The notes under the pieces are model-generated. The model saw only the letters and a program-made list of their open reading frames with translations, had not been told where the DNA came from and searched no databases. From contig JASCNX010000003.1 of NCBI GenBank assembly GCA_029968055.1, forward strand, positions 434,001 through 498,000: a stretch of DNA of 64,000 nt. The letters are read 5' to 3'. The first letter of the stretch is position 1; every line of letters begins with the position of its first letter. Both the position numbers and the translations under genes were made by a program. Of the stretch, positions 52,581 through 64,000 are shown in pieces. Origin of the DNA: Xenophilus aerolatus (GTDB taxonomy: Bacteria; Pseudomonadota; Gammaproteobacteria; Burkholderiales; Burkholderiaceae_C).

Positions 52581-53303
52581 TCAGATCGCAGCGAGGCGAA
52601 CTCGCCCCAGCGTTTCAACTGCTGCTTCCCTCCGTTCGCTGTAGCGGTCCACCAGATAGGAAGCCACGTCCCGCGTCAGCAACGTGAACTTCACGAGCTC
52701 TTCCATCACGTCGATCACGCGCTCGTAGTAAGCGGAGGGCCTCATGCGGCCGGCTTCGTCGAACTCTTGGTAGGCCTTTGGGACCGAGGACTGGTTCGGG
52801 ATGGTCAGCATGCGCATCCAGCGGCCCAGCACACGCAACTGGTTCACCGCGTTGAAGGATTGCGAACCGCCCGAGACCTGCATGACGGCCAGCGTCTTGC
52901 CTTGCGTGGGACGTACGGCTCCTTCGCTGAGCGGGATCCAGTCGATCTGCGCCTTCATGATGGCCGTCATCGCGCCATGCCGCTCGGGTGAGCACCACAC
53001 CATGCCTTCGGACCACCGCGCCAGCTCGCGCAACTGGTGTACTTTCGGATGGTCCGGCGGGACGCTGTCAGGCAGCGGAAGTCCGTTCGGATCGAAGGTC
53101 TTCACTTCGGCGCCCATGGCCTGCAGCAGCCGGCCGGCTTCTTCCGCCAGCAGCCGGCTGTAGGAGCGCTCGCGCACCGAACCGTAGAGCACGAGGATGC
53201 GTGGCGGATGCGCCGCCCGCGCCACGTCGACCAGCCGGGCCAGGGCGGGGCGGTCGAAGTGGGCGGGATCGACATGGGGCAGATCGGCGACGGAAGATTG
53301 CAT
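52581..53303 (-). CDS. arsH: arsenic resistance NADPH-dependent FMN reductase ArsH
   Basis: 240 residues. The flavodoxin-like fold shows [19 protein letters not shown] for FMN phosphate and [20 protein letters not shown], both typical of ArsH. It oxidises trivalent organoarsenicals. Divergent from arsR, with the start inside the operator region and no good ribosome site, so the leader may be short. Confidence 0.95.
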
Positions 53304-53309
53304 GACTTC

Positions 53310-53327
53310 GATAATACGAGTATTATC
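53310..53327. promoter_or_regulatory. ArsR operator palindrome
   Basis: GATAATAC-GA-GTATTATC, a perfect 8-bp dyad in the 29-bp gap between the divergent arsH and arsR starts. Its AT-rich sequence would also hold the overlapping -10 regions, so bound ArsR would block both directions. Confidence 0.8.
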
Positions 53328-53332
53328 AAATT

Positions 53333-53656
53333 ATGGAAGAAGACAATGTCGTTCAAGCCCTCGCCGCCCTGGCGCACCCACTTCGACTTCGCGTGTTCCG
53401 CGCGCTGGTGGTCGCGGGCCCCGAGGGCGCGACGCCCGGCATGCTGCTCGAAAGCATCGATGTTCCGGCCACGAGCCTGTCGTTCCACCTGAAGGAGCTC
53501 ACCGGCTCCGGCCTGGTGACGCAGGAGCGCATGAGTCGGAATCTGCGCTACAGGGCTGCCTTCGCGCAGATGGACGGGCTGCTGGGCTACCTCACGGAGA
53601 ACTGCTGCGCGGGTGCGCCGTGCGCGGTCGAAGCCCGGTCCTCTGCCTGCTGCTGA
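53333..53656 (+). CDS. arsR: ArsR family arsenical-responsive repressor
   Basis: 107 residues. Winged helix with LAHPLRLRVFRALV and TSLSFHLKELTGSGLV. The classical ELCVCDL metal site of R773-type ArsR is absent. Instead Cys residues cluster at the C-terminus (NCCAGAPC, then ACC at the end), resembling the Acidithiobacillus-type sensors that bind As(III) near the C-terminus. First gene of arsR-arsC-acr3. Confidence 0.94.
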   Translation: MEEDNVVQALAALAHPLRLRVFRALVVAGPEGATPGMLLESIDVPATSLSFHLKELTGSGLVTQERMSRNLRYRAAFAQMDGLLGYLTENCCAGAPCAVEARSSACC

Positions 53657-53743
53657 CGTCCTGATTTTCCTCGACCGTGCGGCGCTCCGCCTGTGCCGTG
53701 CGGGTCCACCTGCGCCTTCGATTTCTCAACTCGCGAGCCCGAG

Positions 53744-54247
53744 ATGCCCGACACCCAACCGCTCAACGTCCTGTTCTTGTGCACCCACAACTCTGCCCGC
53801 AGCATCCTGGCCGAGGCCGTGCTGAACGATCTTGGCGCCGGCCGCTTCCGCGCGTTCTCCGCGGGAAGCAGTCCGCGCGACAACCAGGCGCCGAACCCGC
53901 TCGCCCTGCAGGTGCTTGCGAATGCCGGCATCGACACGTCCGGCCTGCGCAGCAAGAGCTGGGACGAGTTCGGCCGGGCCGACGCGCCGCACATGGACCT
54001 GGTCATCACGGTGTGCGACAACGCGGCCGGCGAGGTCTGTCCCTACTGGCCGGGCCACCCGGCGACAGCGCATTGGGGCTACCCGGATCCGTCGGAAGTC
54101 ACCGGGTCCGATGCGCAGCGCCTGGAGGCATTTCGCCAGACGCTGCTCGCCATCCGGCGCCGCCTGGAATTGCTGGTGAACCTGCCAGCCGCCAGCCTGG
54201 AGAAGATGGTGCTGGCGTCCACCGCGCGTTCGTTGTCGAGGTCCTGA
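53744..54247 (+). CDS. arsC: arsenate reductase, low-molecular-weight phosphatase type
   Basis: 167 residues. The P-loop CTHNSARS (CX5R) is near residue 14, and a second pair of Cys (VCDNAAGEVC) matches the thioredoxin-coupled relay of this class; HWGYPDPS follows. It reduces arsenate to arsenite for export. I use the ATG at 53744 at the family N-terminus; an in-frame ATG at 53693 would add a non-conserved segment. Confidence 0.94.
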   Translation: MPDTQPLNVLFLCTHNSARSILAEAVLNDLGAGRFRAFSAGSSPRDNQAPNPLALQVLANAGIDTSGLRSKSWDEFGRADAPHMDLVITVCDNAAGEVCPYWPGHPATAHWGYPDPSEVTGSDAQRLEAFRQTLLAIRRRLELLVNLPAASLEKMVLASTARSLSRS

Positions 54248-54250
54248 GCC

Positions 54251-55318
54251 ATGGCCTCGATCGCCTCCGCGCCGTCCCCTGCGGCTGTGGCGCCCGCCAT
54301 CGGCTTCTTCGAGCGCTACCTCACGGTGTGGGTCGGCCTGTGCATCGTCGCGGGCGTCGGGCTCGGCCAGTTGTTCCCGGCAGTTTTCCACGCCGTGGCG
54401 GCGATGGAGGTCGCCCAGGTCAACCTGCCGGTGGGCCTGTTGATCTGGGTCATGATCGTCCCGATGCTGCTGAAGATCGACTTCGGCGCGCTCGGCCAGG
54501 TCAAGGCGCATTGGCGTGGCATCGGCGTCACCCTGTTCGTGAACTGGGCCGTCAAGCCGTTCTCGATGGCGGTGCTGGGTTGGCTCTTCATCCGTCACGT
54601 CTTCGCGCCGCTGCTGCCGGCGGATCAGTTGGACAGCTATGTCGCGGGACTGATCCTGCTGGCCGCCGCGCCGTGCACCGCCATGGTCTTCGTCTGGAGC
54701 CAGCTGTGCCGTGGCGATCCGTACTTCACGCTGTCCCAGGTGGCACTCAACGACGCGCTGATGGTCGTGGCGTTCGCGCCGCTGGTGGCGCTGCTGCTCG
54801 GCCTGTCGTCCATTGCTGTTCCGTGGGACACGCTGCTCATCTCGGTCGGCCTCTACATCGTCGTGCCGGTGGTCCTGGCGCAAGCATTGCGCGCGCGGCT
54901 GCTTCGGGCCGGGCCGGCCCGGCTGAAGCTCGTTGCGGGCAAGCTCGGGCCCTGGTCCATCGCGGCGCTGCTGCTCACCCTCGTGCTGCTCTTCGCCTTC
55001 CAGGGCGAGGCCATCCTGCGCCAGCCGCTGGTCATTGCGCTGCTGGCCGTGCCGATCCTTCTGCAGGTGATCCTGAATTCGGGCCTCGCCTACCTGCTGA
55101 ACCGCAGGCTCGGGGTCGCCCACTGCGTCGCCGGCCCCTCGGCGCTCATCGGCGCCAGCAACTTCTTCGAGCTCGCGGTCGCGACGGCGATCAGCGTGTT
55201 CGGGTTCGACTCCGGCGCGGCGCTTGCGACAGTCGTCGGCGTGCTCATCGAGGTGCCGGTCATGCTGGCGGTGGTCGCCGTCGTGAACCGCTCCCGACGC
55301 TGGTACGAGGCCCGATGA
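54251..55318 (+). CDS. acr3: ACR3 family arsenite efflux transporter
   Basis: 355 residues with about ten membrane helices. It starts before FFERYLTVWVGLCIVAGVG. The conserved APCTAMVFVWS segment carries the essential Cys, and GASNFFELAVATAI is also characteristic. It expels arsenite across the inner membrane. Begins three bases after the arsC stop. Confidence 0.96.
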   Translation: MASIASAPSPAAVAPAIGFFERYLTVWVGLCIVAGVGLGQLFPAVFHAVAAMEVAQVNLPVGLLIWVMIVPMLLKIDFGALGQVKAHWRGIGVTLFVNWAVKPFSMAVLGWLFIRHVFAPLLPADQLDSYVAGLILLAAAPCTAMVFVWSQLCRGDPYFTLSQVALNDALMVVAFAPLVALLLGLSSIAVPWDTLLISVGLYIVVPVVLAQALRARLLRAGPARLKLVAGKLGPWSIAALLLTLVLLFAFQGEAILRQPLVIALLAVPILLQVILNSGLAYLLNRRLGVAHCVAGPSALIGASNFFELAVATAISVFGFDSGAALATVVGVLIEVPVMLAVVAVVNRSRRWYEAR

Positions 55319-55471: not shown

Positions 55472-56434
55472 TCACTGCTTCTGGAAGCCGATGCTGGCCA
55501 GCAGCCTGCCCCATGCCGCGTGCGATTCGCGGATGACTGCCGAGAAGTCGGCGGCGCTGGCCCAGCGGGGTTCGACCCCCGACGCGCGGAACTCCTCGCG
55601 CAGGTGCGGCAGCGCCATGACGCGGCGTGCGGCCTCGGACAGTTTGTCGACGACCTCTGCCGGCATGCCTGCAGGCCCGATGAGGCCGAGCGAGGTGTCC
55701 ATGTCCATCCCGGAGATGCCCAGTTCGGTCATGGTGGGCAGCGACGGAAAGAGTTCGCTGCGCCGGGGCGAGACGATGCCCAGCAGGCGCACCTGGCCGG
55801 ACCGCGCCAACTGCGTGGCGGCCGAGGACGACGCGAACTGCAGATGCACGCGGCCGGCGATGAAATCCTTGGCGACATCGTTGGCGCCCTTGTACGGCAC
55901 GTGCACGATGTCGATGCCGCCCTGGCGCGCCAGCATCTGGCCCAGCACGTCGGCAGACGTGCCCACGCCTTGCGAAACGTAGTTCAGCTTGCCGGGGTTC
56001 TTCTTGGCGTAGGCGATCAGCTCACGCAGGTTGGTGGCCGGGATGGACGACTGGAGGACCAGCACCGTGGGCCCGAGCGCGCATTGCGCCACGGGCGTGA
56101 AGTCGCGCAACGGGTCGTAGCGCACCGCCTGCAGGGTCTGTGGCAACTGCGTCAGCGTGGAGGCGGGCGTGTACATCACGGTCTGGCCGTCCGGCGGGGC
56201 CTTGGCGGTTTCGACCGCACCGATCATCGTGCCCGCGCCCGGCCGGTTGTCGACGAGCGCAGGCACGCCCAGCTCCGTGCCCAGGTATTGCGCGAGCAGC
56301 CGCGCCTGCAGATCGGTGCCGCCGCCCGCCGGGTATCCGACGATCAGCTTGAGCGGCTTGCCGGCCGCCGGAAAGGCCAGGGCCGGGCCGGCCAGTGCCA
56401 TGGCGGCCGAACCGAGAAACCGTCTGCGGTCCAC
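55472..56434 (-). CDS. Bug/TctC family tripartite tricarboxylate receptor
   Basis: 320 residues. Signal DRRRFLGSAAMALAGPALAF has a twin-arginine-like RRRFLG. Ligand loops KLIVGYPAGGGTDLQARL and DNRPGAGTMIGAV. GTG start at 56432-56434 with AGGAGACATC before it. Last gene of the leftward aldo/keto reductase-Bug-Bug set; only weakly similar to the adjacent Bug. Confidence 0.92.
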   Translation of the reverse strand: MDRRRFLGSAAMALAGPALAFPAAGKPLKLIVGYPAGGGTDLQARLLAQYLGTELGVPALVDNRPGAGTMIGAVETAKAPPDGQTVMYTPASTLTQLPQTLQAVRYDPLRDFTPVAQCALGPTVLVLQSSIPATNLRELIAYAKKNPGKLNYVSQGVGTSADVLGQMLARQGGIDIVHVPYKGANDVAKDFIAGRVHLQFASSSAATQLARSGQVRLLGIVSPRRSELFPSLPTMTELGISGMDMDTSLGLIGPAGMPAEVVDKLSEAARRVMALPHLREEFRASGVEPRWASAADFSAVIRESHAAWGRLLASIGFQKQ

Positions 56435-56494: not shown

Positions 56495-57493
56495 TCAGTC
56501 CAGCGTCATGCCGGTTTCCTGGATGAGCGGCGCCCACCGCGTGCGCTCGTCCCTCAGCCGTGCGGCGTACGCCGCCGGCTTGCCGCCGAGCGGTTGCAGC
56601 CCGATGCCCTGCAGCCGCTGCACGATGGCCGGCACTGCCAGCGCTTCGGTGAACGCGTCCGCGTAGTCGGCCACCAGTTCCGGCGGCGTACCGGCCTTTG
56701 CGAACAGGCCGAAGGAGGTCACGGCGATGAGTCCTGGGTAACCCTGTTCGGCGAAGGTCGGAATCTCGGGCGCCAGCGGCGAACGCGCCTCGCTGGCGAC
56801 CGCCAGCACGCGCAGCTTGCCGGAGCGATGGTCGGCCAGGTAGTCGGGCATGATCGATGCACTCGCGGGGATCTGCCCTCCCAGCAGATCCGACAGCAGC
56901 GGGGCGCCGCCCTTGTAGGGCACGTGCTGCACGTCGACGTTCAGTTGCTTGCGGATCTGATAGACCAGCAGCGAGGCCAGGCCCGCTGCGCTGGGCGTGC
57001 CGATCGAGCCCGCGTTCGGATGGCCCTTGACGTACTCGATGTACTCGGAGAAGCGGCTCACGCCCAGCGAAGGGTTGACCGTGATGCCGTGCGGCGCCGC
57101 GGCGAGGTCCACCACCGGCACCAGGTCGCGTTCCGGGTCGAAGGGCGGCTTCTTGGTGAACTGCGGCAGCAGCGAGATGGCCGAGCTGGGTGCAATCAGC
57201 ACGGATGAGCCGTCGGCCTCGAAGTGCTTGAGGTACTGCACCGCCACGGCCCCACCTCCGCCGGGCTTGGACTCGACAACGACGGTCCGGTTCATGCGGG
57301 CGCGAACGTGTTCGCCCAGCAGCCTCGCCAGCACATCGGAAGACGTGCCGGGCGGCACGGTCAGAACGATGGTCAGACGCCGGTTCTGCGCGCGCAGCAG
57401 TCCGGGCGCGCCCACCAGCGGCGCCGCGGCGAGGCCGGCGAGAAGGCGCCGTCGGGCGCGAGCCGCCTGGGGCAGGGGCTTCAGTGGGTTCAT
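56495..57493 (-). CDS. Bug/TctC family tripartite tricarboxylate receptor
   Basis: 332 residues. Signal ARARRRLLAGLAAAPLVGA; first ligand loop LTIVLTVPPGTSSDVLARLL departs from the usual PxGxGxD pattern; second loop ESKPGGGGAVAVQYL. Start ATG at 57491-57493 with AGGAGAAG upstream. It follows the aldo/keto reductase gene by 22 bp, so co-transcription is likely. Confidence 0.92.
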   Translation of the reverse strand: MNPLKPLPQAARARRRLLAGLAAAPLVGAPGLLRAQNRRLTIVLTVPPGTSSDVLARLLGEHVRARMNRTVVVESKPGGGGAVAVQYLKHFEADGSSVLIAPSSAISLLPQFTKKPPFDPERDLVPVVDLAAAPHGITVNPSLGVSRFSEYIEYVKGHPNAGSIGTPSAAGLASLLVYQIRKQLNVDVQHVPYKGGAPLLSDLLGGQIPASASIMPDYLADHRSGKLRVLAVASEARSPLAPEIPTFAEQGYPGLIAVTSFGLFAKAGTPPELVADYADAFTEALAVPAIVQRLQGIGLQPLGGKPAAYAARLRDERTRWAPLIQETGMTLD

Positions 57494-57515
57494 GTCCGGC
57501 TTCTCCTCCTGGCGG

Positions 57516-58625
57516 TCAGGGCTCGCCATGTTGTGTGCGCGCCAGTTGGCGGGCCTCGAATTCATGCACCTTCTCGGGCCGCAAGCGGCGGTAGACGGGC
57601 GCGACGGTCCGGTCCTCGTCGACCAGCGTGATCCGATCGATCTCGAGCAGGTCTTCGGGCGTGAAGCGTATGTCGAGCGCTCGCACGTTCTCGCGCAACT
57701 GCGCGCCGCTGTCGGCGCCGGCGATCACGGTGAACATGGCCGGACGCGAGAGCAGCCAGGCGAGCGACATCTGGGCCAGCGTCCAGCCACGCTCCTGCGC
57801 AAACGCCAGCAGCTGCTCCTGCACGTTCCAGTTGCGGTCCGTGTGCCAGGTGGCCGTCGACGGGCTGCTTGCCGCGCGGGTCCCCGCGGGCAGGGGCACG
57901 CCGCGCCTGTACGTGTTGGTCAGCATGCCCCCGGCCAGCGGAAAGTACGACGTCATGCCGACGCCGTACTTCACGCAGAACGGCTCCATCCGCTTCTCGA
58001 TGTCGCGATACAGGAGGTTGTAGAAGTCCTGCGCCGAGACGAAACGCGACAGGCCGTGCTCGCGCGCGACATGGTGTGCTTCGCACAGCTCCCATTCGGA
58101 CAGGTTCGATGCGCCGATGTACCGCACCTTGCCCGCGCGGACGAGGTCGTCCAGTGCACGCAGCGTTTCCTCGATCGGGGTGCGGCGGTCCGGCCAGTGC
58201 AGCTGGTACAGGTCGATGTACTCGGTCCCGAGCCGCCGCAGGCTGGCCTCGCAGGCGCGCACGATCGCGATGCGGGACGCGCCCACGTCGTTGGGACCGT
58301 CCGCCATCCGGTTGGCGAATTTCGTGGCAATGACGGCGTCCGCGCGGCGGCCTGCCAGCGCCGCTCCGAGGATTTCCTCGGACTTCCCGATCCCGTAGCT
58401 GTTGGCGGTGTCGAAGTAATTGATGCCGAGGTCCAGCGCTGCATGGACCACGGCGCGCGATGCGTGCTGGTCCAGGAAACCGCCGAAGGGGTAGCAGCCC
58501 ACGCCGATCGCGCTGACGCGCAACCCCGAGGCGCCTACATGCCGGTAGTGCATTCCGTGGCCGGAGTCCTGGCGGGCCAGGCCGATGGCCGTCACGCGCT
58601 CCTGCGCTTCGCGGTTCTGGCTCAA
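57516..58625 (-). CDS. aldo/keto reductase
   Basis: 369 residues if started at the TTG 58623-58625, which has an excellent AAGGAG seven bases upstream; an ATG at 58551-58553 gives 345 residues at the usual family start. The catalytic tetrad is visible: Asp and Tyr in FDTANSYGIGKSEE, Lys in VIATKFAN, His in LYQLHWPD. It resembles the Tas/YghZ-like AKR group. It would reduce a carbonyl with NADPH; substrate unknown. First gene of a unit with two Bug receptors, divergent from the LysR gene. Confidence 0.88.
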   Translation of the reverse strand: MSQNREAQERVTAIGLARQDSGHGMHYRHVGASGLRVSAIGVGCYPFGGFLDQHASRAVVHAALDLGINYFDTANSYGIGKSEEILGAALAGRRADAVIATKFANRMADGPNDVGASRIAIVRACEASLRRLGTEYIDLYQLHWPDRRTPIEETLRALDDLVRAGKVRYIGASNLSEWELCEAHHVAREHGLSRFVSAQDFYNLLYRDIEKRMEPFCVKYGVGMTSYFPLAGGMLTNTYRRGVPLPAGTRAASSPSTATWHTDRNWNVQEQLLAFAQERGWTLAQMSLAWLLSRPAMFTVIAGADSGAQLRENVRALDIRFTPEDLLEIDRITLVDEDRTVAPVYRRLRPEKVHEFEARQLARTQHGEP

Positions 58626-58710
58626 GTCTTGTCTCCTTGATCCGGCCCTGTTGTAACAGTGGCCGTCATTCGTCTTTGCGGCGCATGTTCCGGGCATCGC
58701 GCCGTGGGGT

Positions 58711-58765: not shown

Positions 58766-59662
58766 ATGAACCTGCGGCAGATGGAAGTGTTTCGCGCCGT
58801 CATGCTCGCCGGCGGCGTCAACAGTGCGGCCGACCTGCTGCACGTGTCGGCCCCCGCCATCAGCAAGGTGCTGGCGCAGGCCGCGAAGGCCAGCGGGCTC
58901 GTGCTCTTCGAGCGCGTGCGCGGCCGGCTCATTCCCACGCCCGAAGCGCATCAGCTGCACGAAGAGGTCGAGCGCCTGTGGAGCGGTGTCGAAGCGGTGC
59001 GCGACGTGAGCCGTTCGCTGGCACAGCCGCGCGAGGCCACGCTGAGGCTCGCGTGCACCGCCAGCCTGGCGCCGTACATCGTGTCGCGCGCGTTGGCGCG
59101 GCTGTATGCGGACATCCCTCGCCTGCGGTGCCGGCTGCGCGTGGTGTCGCCGGAGATCGTGAACCAGCAGTTGCTGCAGCGCGAGTCCCATCTCGGGCTG
59201 GTGCTCGGCCCGCACGAGCATCCCAACCTGGAGACGGTACGCAGCTATCGCTGCGGCCTGGCGTGCATCATGCGCAGCGACCACCGGCTCGCCGCCAAGA
59301 AGAAGATCACGCCCCGCGACCTGGTCGGCGAACGCGTGATCTCATCGCCCGAATCCACCCCCTTCGGCCAGACGCTGCGCCGGGCCTTCGGTGCATCCGG
59401 CGCCGGCATGCACCAGGACATGGACTGCACCAGTTCCACCACCGCATGCTGGTTCGCACAGGCCGGCGTCGGCGTTGCCGTGGTCGACCAGGCGTCCATC
59501 GCGGGAGGGCTGCTGTCGGGGCTGGAGGTGCGGCCTTTCCAGTCCGACGAATACCTGGACGTGCGCGTCATCCGCAACCGCTACCGGCCGATGTCGGTCA
59601 GCGAGCGGGCCTTCGTGGAGCTGTTCGACCAGGTGTGGCGCGACGTCTTCCAGCGCGCCTGA
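58766..59662 (+). CDS. LysR family transcriptional regulator
   Basis: 298 residues. Helix-turn-helix MNLRQMEVFRAVMLAGGVN with SAPAISKVLAQAAKASG, then an effector domain. The N-terminus resembles the OccR/NocR group. Divergent from the aldo/keto reductase operon and convergent with the CSTC protein gene (2 bp between stops). The shared operator motif suggests it controls both. Confidence 0.93.
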   Translation: MNLRQMEVFRAVMLAGGVNSAADLLHVSAPAISKVLAQAAKASGLVLFERVRGRLIPTPEAHQLHEEVERLWSGVEAVRDVSRSLAQPREATLRLACTASLAPYIVSRALARLYADIPRLRCRLRVVSPEIVNQQLLQRESHLGLVLGPHEHPNLETVRSYRCGLACIMRSDHRLAAKKKITPRDLVGERVISSPESTPFGQTLRRAFGASGAGMHQDMDCTSSTTACWFAQAGVGVAVVDQASIAGGLLSGLEVRPFQSDEYLDVRVIRNRYRPMSVSERAFVELFDQVWRDVFQRA

Positions 59663-59664
59663 GG

Positions 59665-61443
59665 CTAGCGCCAGTCGTCGATGGGCAGCGTGGCGACGTG
59701 GATGAAATCGGTGGCGAACCAGTAGGCGTTCTTCTCGCCGCCGACCACCAGGGTGCTGATGCCGTCCGGATTGGCGAATCGCGGCACCTGCGAGCCCGGC
59801 GCCTGCGCCAGGTAGGAAGCGAAGGGTTCCTGGCCCTTGCGCGCCAGGGGTTCGACGTAGTTCACGACGAGCTGGTAGTCCCAGTAGGTCTCGTAGGGCA
59901 GGGTCGAGTTCTCGTGGTACCAGTTCGCCAGCTGCTGCTTGGTCGCAAAGCCTTCGCGCTCCTTGAGCGCACGCGCCACCAGCGGGTCGACCAGCAGCGT
60001 GAGGCCAGTTCCCGGAACGGGCGTGAATCCACCCACCATGTTGAGCAGCTGCTGCTTCCACGTCGTCTGGCGGATCTCGAGCATGTGGCTGTAGGTGCGT
60101 CCGCGGAACAGGCTGATGGTGCTCTGGCCGCGTTCGAAGCCCTTCTGCACATGGAAGGGCTCCCAGGGGCTGCGCTCCTCGTTCTCGGCAAAGCAGATGG
60201 CGTTGTAGTTCAGCGGGTTGCCCTGGGTCCCCAGGTACGTGACCCCGGGCACCGCGCCGCCCCCGAGGTTGCGCGAGAGAAGGCTCCACGCGCGTCCGAT
60301 CGCCGCATTGGCATGGTTGAACGGCCCCAGTGCGCCCAGGCCCGAGTTCATGCGGATTTCGTGGCGGATGGGGCCGTTCACCACCACCATGGCCGCGAAG
60401 TTGCTGGTGGAGCTGTGCAAGGCCGTGACCTGGCTGGCTGCCAGCGCCAACAGGACCGGCAGGTGCTCGGGGCTGGCGCCCGCCATCACGGCATTCACTG
60501 CCACCTGCTCGACGGTGTAGCTCCAGTCTTCTTGCGTGGCGGTGGGGCGCATCCGTCCGATCGTTTCGGTCGGCGCGCGCTTCGTGCCCTTGAGCATGGC
60601 CTCGACCCGCTGCGGCGTAGGCAGGACCACCGGCAGCCCGTCGCTCCACCATGCGTCGCGGAACATCGCATGCAGCTCGTCTTCGGAGTCGGCCCCGAGC
60701 AGACGGGGGATCGGGCGTTCGAGCGTCCCGCGCTCGGATTCCTCGGGCGTGAGCGCAGCGGTCAAGGCACCGACGATGCTGTCCACCACGGTCCGGCCGC
60801 TCACGGGGCTGGCGCCTTCGACATAGCGGCGCAGCTCGGGCGCGGTCTTGCCGCTGACCGGATGCGGCACGAAGGTGAACCTGAGCTTCGGCATGCCTCC
60901 CTTGAAGGCGATGGCGCCCACGAGGTCGGTGAACGCGTTGGTGACGAGCGGGGCCGTGGCAACGCCGCGCTCCTCGAGGTTCATGCAATGCACGGCGACT
61001 GCCGGCGCGCAGGTGCTGCAATGGCCGATGGCCATCACGACCAGCGCGTCGTTGTCCTCGATTTCCTTCCACAGCGCGGGATCGTCCTCCGTGTAGCCGC
61101 CACGCTTCTGGCGCACCACCGTCTTCACCTCCGGCATGCGTTCGGCCAGGACTTGCGCGATCTCCTCCAGCAGGGCCTTGCCGTTCATGAAGCGGACATC
61201 CACCAGATAGAGGGTGCGGCCCGCCAGACTGGACGGCCGCGGGGCCATCGAGCGCAGCTGGATGGCCGGCGGCGTGCCGCGTGGGTTGAGCGCCTGGTAG
61301 CGCTTGCCGCGCGGATCGAAGTCGCCGCGCGCGATGCGCCGCTCCATCACCTCGCCCGGGTAGGCCTCGATCTCACAGGTACCGGCGAGCGAGGCGAGGC
61401 CCTCGTCGATCGGCGCATTCTGGGTCTTTGGTTCTGGACTCAC
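59665..61443 (-). CDS. two-domain protein with a CSTC cysteine cluster (UGSC-family-like)
   Basis: 592 residues from the GTG at 61441-61443, chosen for the GGAG five bases upstream; an ATG at 61491 would run through the operator. The N-terminal half has an alpha/beta segment DNDALVVMAIGHCSTCAPAV, with Cys-Ser-Thr-Cys where UGSC proteins have Sec/Cys-Gly-Ser-Cys. The C-terminal half has WWSDGLPVVLPTPQRVEAML and VEQVAVNAVMAGASPEHLPV, a block I associate with the same poorly characterised family. No signal peptide. Possibly a thiol-based lyase or reductase; function not established. Confidence 0.7.
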   Translation of the reverse strand: MSPEPKTQNAPIDEGLASLAGTCEIEAYPGEVMERRIARGDFDPRGKRYQALNPRGTPPAIQLRSMAPRPSSLAGRTLYLVDVRFMNGKALLEEIAQVLAERMPEVKTVVRQKRGGYTEDDPALWKEIEDNDALVVMAIGHCSTCAPAVAVHCMNLEERGVATAPLVTNAFTDLVGAIAFKGGMPKLRFTFVPHPVSGKTAPELRRYVEGASPVSGRTVVDSIVGALTAALTPEESERGTLERPIPRLLGADSEDELHAMFRDAWWSDGLPVVLPTPQRVEAMLKGTKRAPTETIGRMRPTATQEDWSYTVEQVAVNAVMAGASPEHLPVLLALAASQVTALHSSTSNFAAMVVVNGPIRHEIRMNSGLGALGPFNHANAAIGRAWSLLSRNLGGGAVPGVTYLGTQGNPLNYNAICFAENEERSPWEPFHVQKGFERGQSTISLFRGRTYSHMLEIRQTTWKQQLLNMVGGFTPVPGTGLTLLVDPLVARALKEREGFATKQQLANWYHENSTLPYETYWDYQLVVNYVEPLARKGQEPFASYLAQAPGSQVPRFANPDGISTLVVGGEKNAYWFATDFIHVATLPIDDWR

Positions 61444-61747
61444 GGTGTCTCCGGGTGGCACGCGCGCATTCTGGGGCGGTGGCCCCGGCACCGTAAATTG
61501 AAAAAAGCGCGGTGTGTTTTAACTTGCGGTTAACGCTTGGCCGAGAACCTTGAGTGCCGGCTTTCAACGTGTCGGCGACGGTCGGCCCGAACGTCAGGCG
61601 TGGCGGGCGGTGACAGGCCCGGTCCCTCGCTTCCCGTCCGACACCCGCAAGCTCGGTTCGCCGGCCCGGCGCTCACGGGGGCCGGCCTAAGTTTGCTGCT
61701 CCTTCAACGCAGCAGGGCATCCATGCAATCCATCTCGCGCGGCGACC
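61444..61747. other. 304-bp intergenic region holding operator copy B
   Basis: The left part contains the operator at 61494-61540. The rest (61541-61747) is GC-rich with no recognised gene or terminator. A promoter for the small membrane protein gene presumably lies here but no clear hexamers are seen. Confidence 0.5.
61494..61540. promoter_or_regulatory. composite LysR-type operator, copy B
   Basis: TAAATTGAAAAAAG, GGTGTG and the dyad TTAAC-TTGCG-GTTAA (61519-61533) in the same order, orientation and approximate spacing as copy A at 58711-58757. The dyad also fits T-N11-A (61520-61532). It is about 50 bp upstream of the CSTC protein gene. Confidence 0.6.
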
Positions 61748-62124: not shown

Positions 62125-63075
62125 TCAATAGCCGCGCATCGCGTCGATCCGGTGCTCGGGCTCCTGGCCCGCGGCCACGCGCTGGATGTTCGCTGCGATC
62201 TGCAGCGCGGACGACTCGGGAATGGCGACCGACGCCAGGTGCGGCGTGATCAGCACCTTCGGCATGCGCCACAGCGGGTCGCCGGCCGGCAGCGGTTCGC
62301 GTTCGAACACATCCAGCGTGGCGCTGTCGATGTGGCCGCTTTCGAGAAGCTCTGTCAGCGCGGCCTGGTCGACCAGCGTGCCGCGCGCCACGTTGACGAA
62401 GGCTGCGCCGCGCTTCAGGCGCTGCAACCGTGCGCGGTCGAAGAGGCCGCGGGTCTCGGGCGTGAGCGGCAGCATCAGCACCACGATGTCGGCCTGGTCG
62501 AGCACCTCGTCCAGCGTGTCCATGCCCGAACGGCACGCCACGCCCTCGATCCGGCGCGGGCTGCGCGACCAGCCGAGCGTGCGGAAGCCCTGGCGCTGCA
62601 CTTCGGTGGCGGCCATGGCGCCGAGCTGGCCCAGGCCGAGCACGGCGACCGTGATGTCGGCGTGCGCTCGCGGATGGCGGTAGGCCCATTCGCCGCGCCG
62701 CTGCGCCTGCTCGAAGTGCGGGATGTCGCGCGCATGGCGCAGCACCGCGAACAGCACGTAGCCGGCCATCATGCGCCCCATCTGGGGATCGGTGATCCGC
62801 GTGATCGGGATGCCGGGCGGCAGGTCGTCGCGCGCGACCAGCGCGTCGACGCCGGCCCCCAGGTTGATGATCAGGCGCAGGTTGGGCATCCGCTGGAAGA
62901 AGCCCGCGGGCGGCTTCCAGGCCATGGCGTAGTGCACGTCCTCGGGCCGCTCGACGGCGGTGGCGTGCACCACCTGCAGCGTCGGCAGCTGCGCCTGCAG
63001 GGCCTTCTTCCAGGTCTCGAAGTCGTCGAACTCGCTGTAGAAGACCAGGGTGCCCAGGGCCGCGGCCATCGTCAT
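62125..63075 (-). CDS. D-2-hydroxyacid dehydrogenase (glyoxylate/hydroxypyruvate reductase A type)
   Basis: 316 residues. Rossmann loop VLGLGQLGAMAA; catalytic Arg in NVARGTLVD, Glu in DVFEREPL, His in ITPHLASV. The GhrA-like subgroup is suggested by INLGAGVDAL and the short N-terminal domain. The ATG at 63073-63075 overlaps the stop of the dehydroquinase-like gene (ATGA). It would interconvert a 2-oxoacid and a D-2-hydroxyacid. Confidence 0.9.
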   Translation of the reverse strand: MTMAAALGTLVFYSEFDDFETWKKALQAQLPTLQVVHATAVERPEDVHYAMAWKPPAGFFQRMPNLRLIINLGAGVDALVARDDLPPGIPITRITDPQMGRMMAGYVLFAVLRHARDIPHFEQAQRRGEWAYRHPRAHADITVAVLGLGQLGAMAATEVQRQGFRTLGWSRSPRRIEGVACRSGMDTLDEVLDQADIVVLMLPLTPETRGLFDRARLQRLKRGAAFVNVARGTLVDQAALTELLESGHIDSATLDVFEREPLPAGDPLWRMPKVLITPHLASVAIPESSALQIAANIQRVAAGQEPEHRIDAMRGY

Positions 63076-63545
63076 GCGTCCTGCCGGCTCTTGCGCACCA
63101 GGCGCGTCACCGCCTCGATGGCGAACTCGTAGCCGTCGCCGCCCAGGCCGGCGATCACGCCGTCGGCAGCCTTGGAGATGAAGGACCGGTGCCGAAAGGG
63201 CTCGCGCTTCCAGATGTTGCTCATGTGGGCCTCGATGATCTTGCCGGGAAAGGCCAGCAGCGCATCGAGGATGGCGATGGAGGTGTAGGTCAGCCCGGCG
63301 GCGTTGATGACGATGCCGTCGGCCGTGCCGCGCGCCTCCTGGATCCAGTCGATCAGCTGGCCTTCGTGGTTGGACTGCAGGAAGCGCAGCTGCACGCCGA
63401 GCGACGCGGCCTTCTGTTCGCAGCGCGCCTGCAGCACCGGGAAGCTGTCGCTGCCGTAGGTCTTGTTGGCGTCCAGCCCGTAGAGGTTGGCGTTGGGCCC
63501 GTTCAGGAACCAGACCGTGAGGGGGGGCGTCGTGGTGGTGCTCAT
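63072..63545 (-). CDS. type II 3-dehydroquinate dehydratase-like protein, divergent active site
   Basis: 157 residues with the AroQ fold: FLNGPNANLYG, YGSDSF with the conserved Tyr, IVINAAGLTYTS and FRHRSFIS. Compared with classical AroQ, the lid Arg (GxREP) is Asp in GLDANKTYG and the His of the NPGAYTHTS motif is Tyr. Other sites (Asn, His of EAHMSN, Arg of KREPFR) remain. It may be a catabolic dehydratase or a relative with changed chemistry rather than a shikimate enzyme. Coupled to the hydroxyacid dehydrogenase. Confidence 0.8.
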   Translation of the reverse strand: MSTTTTPPLTVWFLNGPNANLYGLDANKTYGSDSFPVLQARCEQKAASLGVQLRFLQSNHEGQLIDWIQEARGTADGIVINAAGLTYTSIAILDALLAFPGKIIEAHMSNIWKREPFRHRSFISKAADGVIAGLGGDGYEFAIEAVTRLVRKSRQDA

Positions 63546-63553
63546 AAGTGTCC

Positions 63554-64000
63554 TCAGGCGTCGTGGGGAAGGGTGGCCTGCATGGCCGGCAACTGCGCAA
63601 ACCCGGCGTACCACTGCGTGGCAACGGGATGGCTGGCGCGCCAGTCCAGCTCGGGGAAGCGGAAGTCGAGGTAGCCCAGGCCGCAACCGATGGCGACCTC
63701 GCCGATCGTGGGCGCGGCTGCCGCCAGCGTCGGCGCGACGGCCTCGATGGCGTCCAGGCAGGCCGCGACCTTGGTCAGCAGCGCCTCGCGCCAGACGGGC
63801 CATTGCACCTCGGGCGGCCGTGCTGTCAACTCGTAGCGTGCGAGCAGAGCGGCATCGAGCAGGCCATCGCCCAGGGCCTGGCGCGTCAACGCCGTCCAGC
63901 GCGCCGGGCCTGCGTCCGGGAAGATGCCGGCGCTGCCCAGGCTGTCGATGTATTCGCAGATCACCCGGCTGTCGTAGAGCGACTGCCCGTCGTCGAGCAG
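63554..64000 (-). CDS. glutathione S-transferase family protein, N-terminus beyond the window
   Basis: 149 codons remain open to the right edge. The visible part begins LLDDGQSLYDSRVICEYID, the end of the thioredoxin-like domain where glutathione is held, and continues with the all-helical C-terminal domain (RWTALTRQALGDGLLDAAL, IGEVAIGCGLGYLDFR). It lies 8 bp upstream of the dehydroquinase-like gene, forming a three-gene leftward operon. Confidence 0.88.
   Translation of the reverse strand: MLDDGQSLYDSRVICEYIDSLGSAGIFPDAGPARWTALTRQALGDGLLDAALLARYELTARPPEVQWPVWREALLTKVAACLDAIEAVAPTLAAAAPTIGEVAIGCGLGYLDFRFPELDWRASHPVATQWYAGFAQLPAMQATLPHDA

Follow-up and report, generated by a model that had tools for sequence, protein, structure and literature searches.

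Which reaction is catalysed by a two-domain protein with a single CSTC motif, encoded beside genes for a LysR-type regulator, an aldo/keto reductase (AKR) and two TctC/Bug receptors, is the question raised by this locus. It was addressed in the window (the whole stretch of 64,000 nucleotides analysed), in relatives of the gene and in their genomic neighbourhoods. A sequence-only reading had described the gene, its CSTC and this context, all of which are confirmed by ORF calls and Pfam. The features are listed below with their window coordinates; identities are to the counterparts in locus L053.

59665..61491, minus strand: UGSC/Unknown_1 fusion gene (608 aa, GTG start)
60805..61290, minus strand: UGSC domain (residues 68-229; Pfam match and profile comparison)
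61009..61020, minus strand: CSTC, with Cys158 (Sec position) and Cys161 (residues 158-161 of the 608-aa ORF)
59668..60699, minus strand: C-terminal "Unknown_1" domain (about residues 265-608; no known relative)
58766..59662, plus strand: LysR-type regulator (73% identical)
57516..58697, minus strand: AKR (71% identical)
56495..57565, minus strand: TctC/Bug receptor 2 (59% identical)
55472..56434, minus strand: TctC/Bug receptor 1 (65% identical)

The UGSC/Unknown_1 gene and its family

The window gene is real, conserved and uncharacterised, and the conserved features of its ORF are far beyond chance. A second in-frame GTG at 61443, with GGAG upstream, opens an ORF of 592 aa and is probably the true start; residue numbers given here are those of the 608-aa ORF. 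CSTC is the sole CxxC of that ORF, which carries AVNAVMAGASPEHLPV at residues 331-346. Cys158 is encoded by TGC, so that the first motif position in the window gene has no UGA.

The proposed kinship with UGSC selenoproteins is borne out by a Pfam UGSC match (PF24696) over residues 68-229 (E 2.8e-28; 99.6 bits versus a gathering cut-off of 25). The N-terminal domain thus belongs to the same family as the UGSC selenoproteins (PF24696, NF041046; PMC2398784), from which it differs in having Cys for selenocysteine (Sec), CSTC for UGSC, and a score of 71.3 bits against NCBIfam UGSC_fam (NF041046) that lies under the equivalog cut-off of 125. HMM searches with each domain separately, suggested by the sequence-only reading, were informative for the N-terminal domain but gave no credible match for the C-terminal one: the latter matched nothing in Pfam up to E 10 and nothing in NCBIfam, and its profile found nothing better than E 0.81 among PDB sequences. 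PHROGs gave no match, and the whole protein matched no PDB sequence up to E 10; the UGSC profile gave weak PDB matches only (best E 0.14).

A UGSC/Unknown_1 fusion was named, with no function given in the part of the text available, in a selenoproteome paper of 2008, which also states that the UGSC domain has a likely Trx-like fold (PMC2398784). The window gene carries the same kind of fusion, and we infer that its C-terminal domain is the "Unknown_1" of that paper. The UGSC family appears again in the parts available of reviews of 2022 (PMC9312934) and 2026 (PMC13188914). The earlier statement that this step had not been described therefore holds for the function but not for the domain pair, which is already known. 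Added by the present analysis are the kinship with GrdB, the linkage to reductase genes and the malonyl-CoA operons; also new are the tally of Sec, Cys and loss in fused homologues and the LysR/AKR/two-Bug block in one other genome. Among the matches listed in a search on UGSC and selenoproteins, no titles or abstract openings linked UGSC to GrdB, which does not prove that such a link is absent from the literature.

Selenocysteine, cysteine or loss at the motif

Relatives were searched in 300 genomes of the window's order (Burkholderiales), with as a rule four candidates scored per genome, and matches were found in 35 of them, window genome included. At least 57 same-order matches span residue 158, and 54 of these have at least one in-frame TGA. 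TGA stands at the first motif position in the same-order loci fetched, with the exception of L002 (genome G103), the closest relative (69% identity), which keeps CSTC. An in-frame TGA in the L002 gene replaces the conserved Trp of SPWEPFHV and reflects either a nonsense change or a sequencing error.

A wider sample of 79 loci from many phyla, taken from the best 80 matches of a contig scan, gave 116 target pieces. Of these, 90 two-domain pieces were combined with the window protein, four plasmid-borne and five same-order proteins into a set of 100 fused proteins, and the remaining 26 pieces (split genes, fragments) were not included. In this set, drawn from best matches, the first motif position is Sec in 76 proteins, Cys in 13 (that is, Sec or Cys in 89) and another residue in 11, while the second Cys is retained in 92. 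Both features are kept together in 88 of the 100 rows, in agreement with the conserved CxxC-like centre proposed earlier. In alignment A2 (46 rows, in-frame UGA read as Cys), Cys occupies the first of the two Cys columns in 42 rows and the second in 44. The predicted conservation of the C-terminal domain was equally found, with A331, V335, M336, A337 and G338 present in 46 of 46 rows.

Compared with the average of 40 stretches taken from the same gene, the 48 nt beginning at the UGA form the more stable fold in 79% of 72 genes (mean z -0.90, p 1.6e-10), and a stable stem following the UGA supports its being true Sec. A tRNA-Sec is found in the window genome (72.6 bits, cut-off 47), so Sec is probably available there. 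In a quick tree the window and G103 proteins are a Cys pair inside a group of 30 rows, of which 21 have Sec and 9 Cys; at least six changes are needed to account for the Cys label. Just after the Cys158 codon of the window gene (60973-61020, minus strand) there is a hairpin of -13.7 kcal/mol, much like that of the Sec relative L050; it may be what remains of a Sec insertion element, but could also be kept by the protein sequence alone.

The window gene might instead have little function, as a copy that was acquired recently or is decaying. Only two of 15 genomes of the genus match, the window's own and another in the C-terminal domain only; the closest relative has its interrupted Trp codon, and no TrxB-like gene lies near the window gene, all of which would fit such a copy. 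Against decay, the ORF is full-length and keeps the invariant residues, the cluster that the gene adjoins is conserved in L053 (59-73% identity), and other Cys forms (L053, L060, L088, Neorhizobium galegae) have a TrxB-like gene alongside. We consider this explanation very unlikely.

As 11 of the 100 fused relatives have no nucleophile, part of the family does something else. Fused members with L, N, A, M or S in its place are L061, L064, L086, L100, L115, L036 and L041. Members without Cys or Sec near aconitase X genes occur in Sporomusa and Vibrio, and L036 and L041 have this neighbourhood; L064 and L086 adjoin genes that appear, by eye, to encode glycyl-radical enzymes or activases. In N. 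galegae VafX2 (L038, 9881-11615) two overlapping frames, each annotated as a hypothetical protein, make up the split homologue; in N. galegae 7g (L031) it is one frame. Several haloarchaeal genomes carry more than one copy.

Probable remote kinship with GrdB

The closest relative found by profile comparison is GrdB. In hhalign, UGSC compared with 32 GrdB sequences (L155, L157 and Bacillota loci) gave a probability of 95.6 (P 1.2e-8, score 59.3), and adding Burkholderiales GrdB-like proteins gave 96.1 (P 2.9e-9, score 64.6). The alignment covers about 70 columns and places Sec on Sec/Cys. Control scores were well below these values: column shuffles (25 in each of the two comparisons) reached at most 20.3 and 19.7, reversed profiles 20.3 and 19.0, and 35 unrelated neighbour families at most 30.7 (probability 25.9). 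Narrower UGSC-GrdB profile comparisons came out lower, at probabilities of 62.9 and 82.8, and UGSC against GrdE-family proteins gave a probability of 60.3. No PF07355 match was found for the window protein by hmmscan up to E 10, which may be because the Pfam model appears to stop just before Sec. These sequence profiles make it very probable that the UGSC domain is remotely homologous to the domain of GrdB that bears Sec, Cys158 standing where GrdB has Sec.

The relation to GrdB and PrdB (PF07355) is, by profile comparison, one of a homologous Sec/Cys domain with Sec aligned on Sec, and thioredoxin-type genes occur near many relatives of the window protein. There are also differences: the window protein has neither a PF07355 match nor a GrdE-like partner domain, being fused to Unknown_1 instead, and the UxxCxxC motif of GrdB (UGTCTRC in L155) corresponds to CSTCAPA in the window, where the third Cys is absent.

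An alternative is that the protein is a Trx-like thiol-disulfide or peroxide-reducing oxidoreductase, in which CSTC would simply cycle between dithiol and disulfide, Unknown_1 serving as a sensor or as a partner domain. It agrees with the UxxC motif of the family and with the likely Trx-like fold stated in the available part of PMC2398784; that GrdB is the best relative among the profiles compared (GrdB, the GrdE family, Asp/Glu racemases and 35 neighbour families) speaks against it. Gene neighbourhoods, which bear on it in both directions, are described below.

An Asp/Glu racemase (3ojc) came up at E 0.3 in the PDB search and was not sustained by hhalign against a PF01177 set (probability 0.2), a weak test as the 23 sequences of that set held at least one wrong-frame ORF. 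GrdB-like proteins with UPxC are present in genomes of the order Burkholderiales (L129-L136, L139, L141-L143), and 11 of the 13 genomes of this order with a PF07355 match also match the window protein.

The Unknown_1 domain

Unknown_1 was compared with 25 sequences of the GrdE family, the usual partner of GrdB, and rejected as a relative (probability 0.1); nothing credible emerged against GrdB, Asp/Glu racemases or the 35 neighbour families. Its conserved charged residues, together with one in the N-terminal part, are R85 (46 of the 46 rows of A2), D284 (45), R400 (45), E436 (46) and E438 (42), which are candidates for carboxylate and acid/base roles.

Neighbour genes of the relatives

Genes were called heuristically in the 79 best-match loci. 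A TrxB-like gene with CxxC is found within two genes of the family member in 18 of them and directly adjacent in 15; among immediate neighbours TrxB-like genes number 15 of 168, as compared with 3 of 742 other genes (p 2.8e-9). They are concentrated in the window's clade (14 of 25 loci versus 4 of 54 elsewhere, p 5.4e-6, related loci not being independent). No TrxB-like gene lies within two genes in the other 61 loci, in some of which the contig ends nearby. A tie between this absence and degenerate members was considered and dropped (0 of 5 versus 18 of 73 loci, p 0.58, not significant). A Roseovarius plasmid has trxB beside split genes, an Arthrobacter plasmid has trxB and trxA nearby, and a CxxC-bearing FAD oxidoreductase is encoded beside family genes in Haloterrigena and Variovorax (in the latter with one receptor gene between). 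The Cys forms L053, L060, L088 and N. galegae have their TrxB-like gene alongside.

The commonest family among the neighbours scanned is TctC (13 of 123 proteins, themselves 123 of 248 filtered). In N. galegae 7g (L031) the genes for malonyl-CoA decarboxylase, malonyl-CoA synthetase (matched in two pieces), UGSC/Unknown_1 and a TrxB-like protein follow one another, and the same order recurs in Microbacterium album (L088), which belongs to a different phylum. In L062 a decarboxylase-like gene lies on the opposite strand between two family members. This malonate link concerns few genomes and is absent from the window cluster; the window genome has a malonyl-CoA decarboxylase on another contig. 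The literature on Acidovorax sp. T1 gave no useful substrate hint.

TrxB-like neighbours would also suit the Trx-like oxidoreductase introduced above, but the neighbours in annotated loci include transport and acid-catabolism genes, and together with the GrdB match this leaves a Trx-like oxidoreductase unlikely. The sequence-only reading had proposed a redox or a lyase function. In a non-reductive lyase, hydrolase or isomerase, Cys158 would attack organic acids as a covalent nucleophile, and the TrxB-like protein would do no more than repair an oxidised active site. The 61 loci without a TrxB-like gene within two genes would be expected for such an enzyme, as would nucleophile-less members beside aconitase X genes, where Unknown_1 may catalyse alone. 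The retention of a second, resolving Cys in 92 of 100 proteins and the TrxB-like genes directly adjacent in 15 of 79 loci argue the other way, and a non-reductive enzyme appears improbable. Redox is favoured over lyase chemistry because reductase genes neighbour those of the relatives, although none is near in the window.

A proposed reductive mechanism

A tentative reading, to which we give somewhat less than an even chance, is that the protein is a two-domain redox enzyme acting like the B component of glycine/proline reductase. By analogy, the best reading of its chemistry is that a thiol nucleophile would reductively strip an alpha-substituent from a small carboxylate. GrdB-family enzymes are described as cleaving bonds between carbon and a substituent next to carboxylates with electrons from dithiols, the GrdB-type nucleophile of glycine and proline reductase forming a carbon adduct that is reduced by dithiols (both from the available part of PMC10298544). 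The thiolate of Cys158 (the selenolate of Sec in most relatives examined) would attack the carbon next to the carboxylate and displace the substituent (a halide, an amine, or an oxygen or sulphur group), yielding a thioether. Cys161 would resolve the thioether to give the reduced acid and a Cys158-Cys161 disulfide, in turn reduced by a TrxB-like flavoprotein or the cellular thioredoxin system. The role of Unknown_1 would be to bind the acid and hold it in position; R400 and E436 are candidates for binding the carboxylate and donating a proton. In the window, the Bug receptors would import the acid, and a related carbonyl step would fall to the AKR. Malonate is suggested as a possible product only for the members from N. 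galegae and M. album, which would hand it on to malonyl-CoA synthetase and decarboxylase.

A comparable system is FarB of Cloacibacillus, a GrdB-like protein presented in the available part of its description as a candidate for C-F cleavage of fluoroacetate in dehalorespiration (PMC10838667). It shares with the proposed enzyme a GrdB-family nucleophile and a proposed break of a carbon-halogen bond next to a carboxylate. Compared by description only, it differs from the window protein in that it belongs to an anaerobe, has a GrdE-like partner and is predicted to feed GrdA/GrdC; Unknown_1 is not mentioned in the part of that description available (PMC10838667).

A broader proposal, which we regard as possible but rather doubtful, is that carbon-substituent reductases, most of them Sec-based, form a widespread family distinct from the classic anaerobic reductases of glycine and proline. 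In it, a GrdB-type domain would be combined with a new substrate domain, either on a single chain or through a pair of genes, and served by a dedicated TrxB-like recycler, one branch converting substituted malonates to malonate and the window protein being a Cys version in a Bug/AKR cluster. If the GrdB kinship is true, the label "Trx-like" gives way to a concrete chemistry, attack by a selenolate or thiolate next to a carboxylate, for which the malonyl-CoA operons would supply a predicted product; glycine-reductase-type chemistry would then extend to many bacterial groups and haloarchaea.

The window cluster and its counterpart in L053

The association with LysR, AKR and Bug genes, pointed out previously, is seen again in one other genome. 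The L053 block comprises LysR, TctC2, AKR, UGSC/Unknown_1 (48% identical to that of the window), a TrxB-like gene and TctC1. The window UGSC/Unknown_1 gene sits on the other side of LysR when compared to L053, and the tree groups it with G103 and not with L053; next to the G103 gene lie an SDR and a TctC (44% to TctC2). Since LysR, AKR, TctC2 and TctC1 are shared while UGSC/Unknown_1 is differently placed and grouped with G103, this one comparison suggests that the catabolic cluster has been conserved while this gene within it was exchanged, or else relocated and diverged. No TrxB-like gene is near the window cluster, and the best three matches in the window genome are 33-35% identical.

The Bug genes are adjoined by an apparent arsenic gene cluster (52581-55318), whose translations look by eye like an ArsH-like flavoprotein, an ArsR-type regulator, an ArsC-type phosphatase and an ACR3-type transporter. 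Upstream of the UGSC/Unknown_1 gene, at about 600 bases and on the same strand (62125-63964, minus strand), lie a GST-like end (by eye) and genes for a type II dehydroquinase-family protein and a GhrA-like 2-hydroxyacid dehydrogenase.
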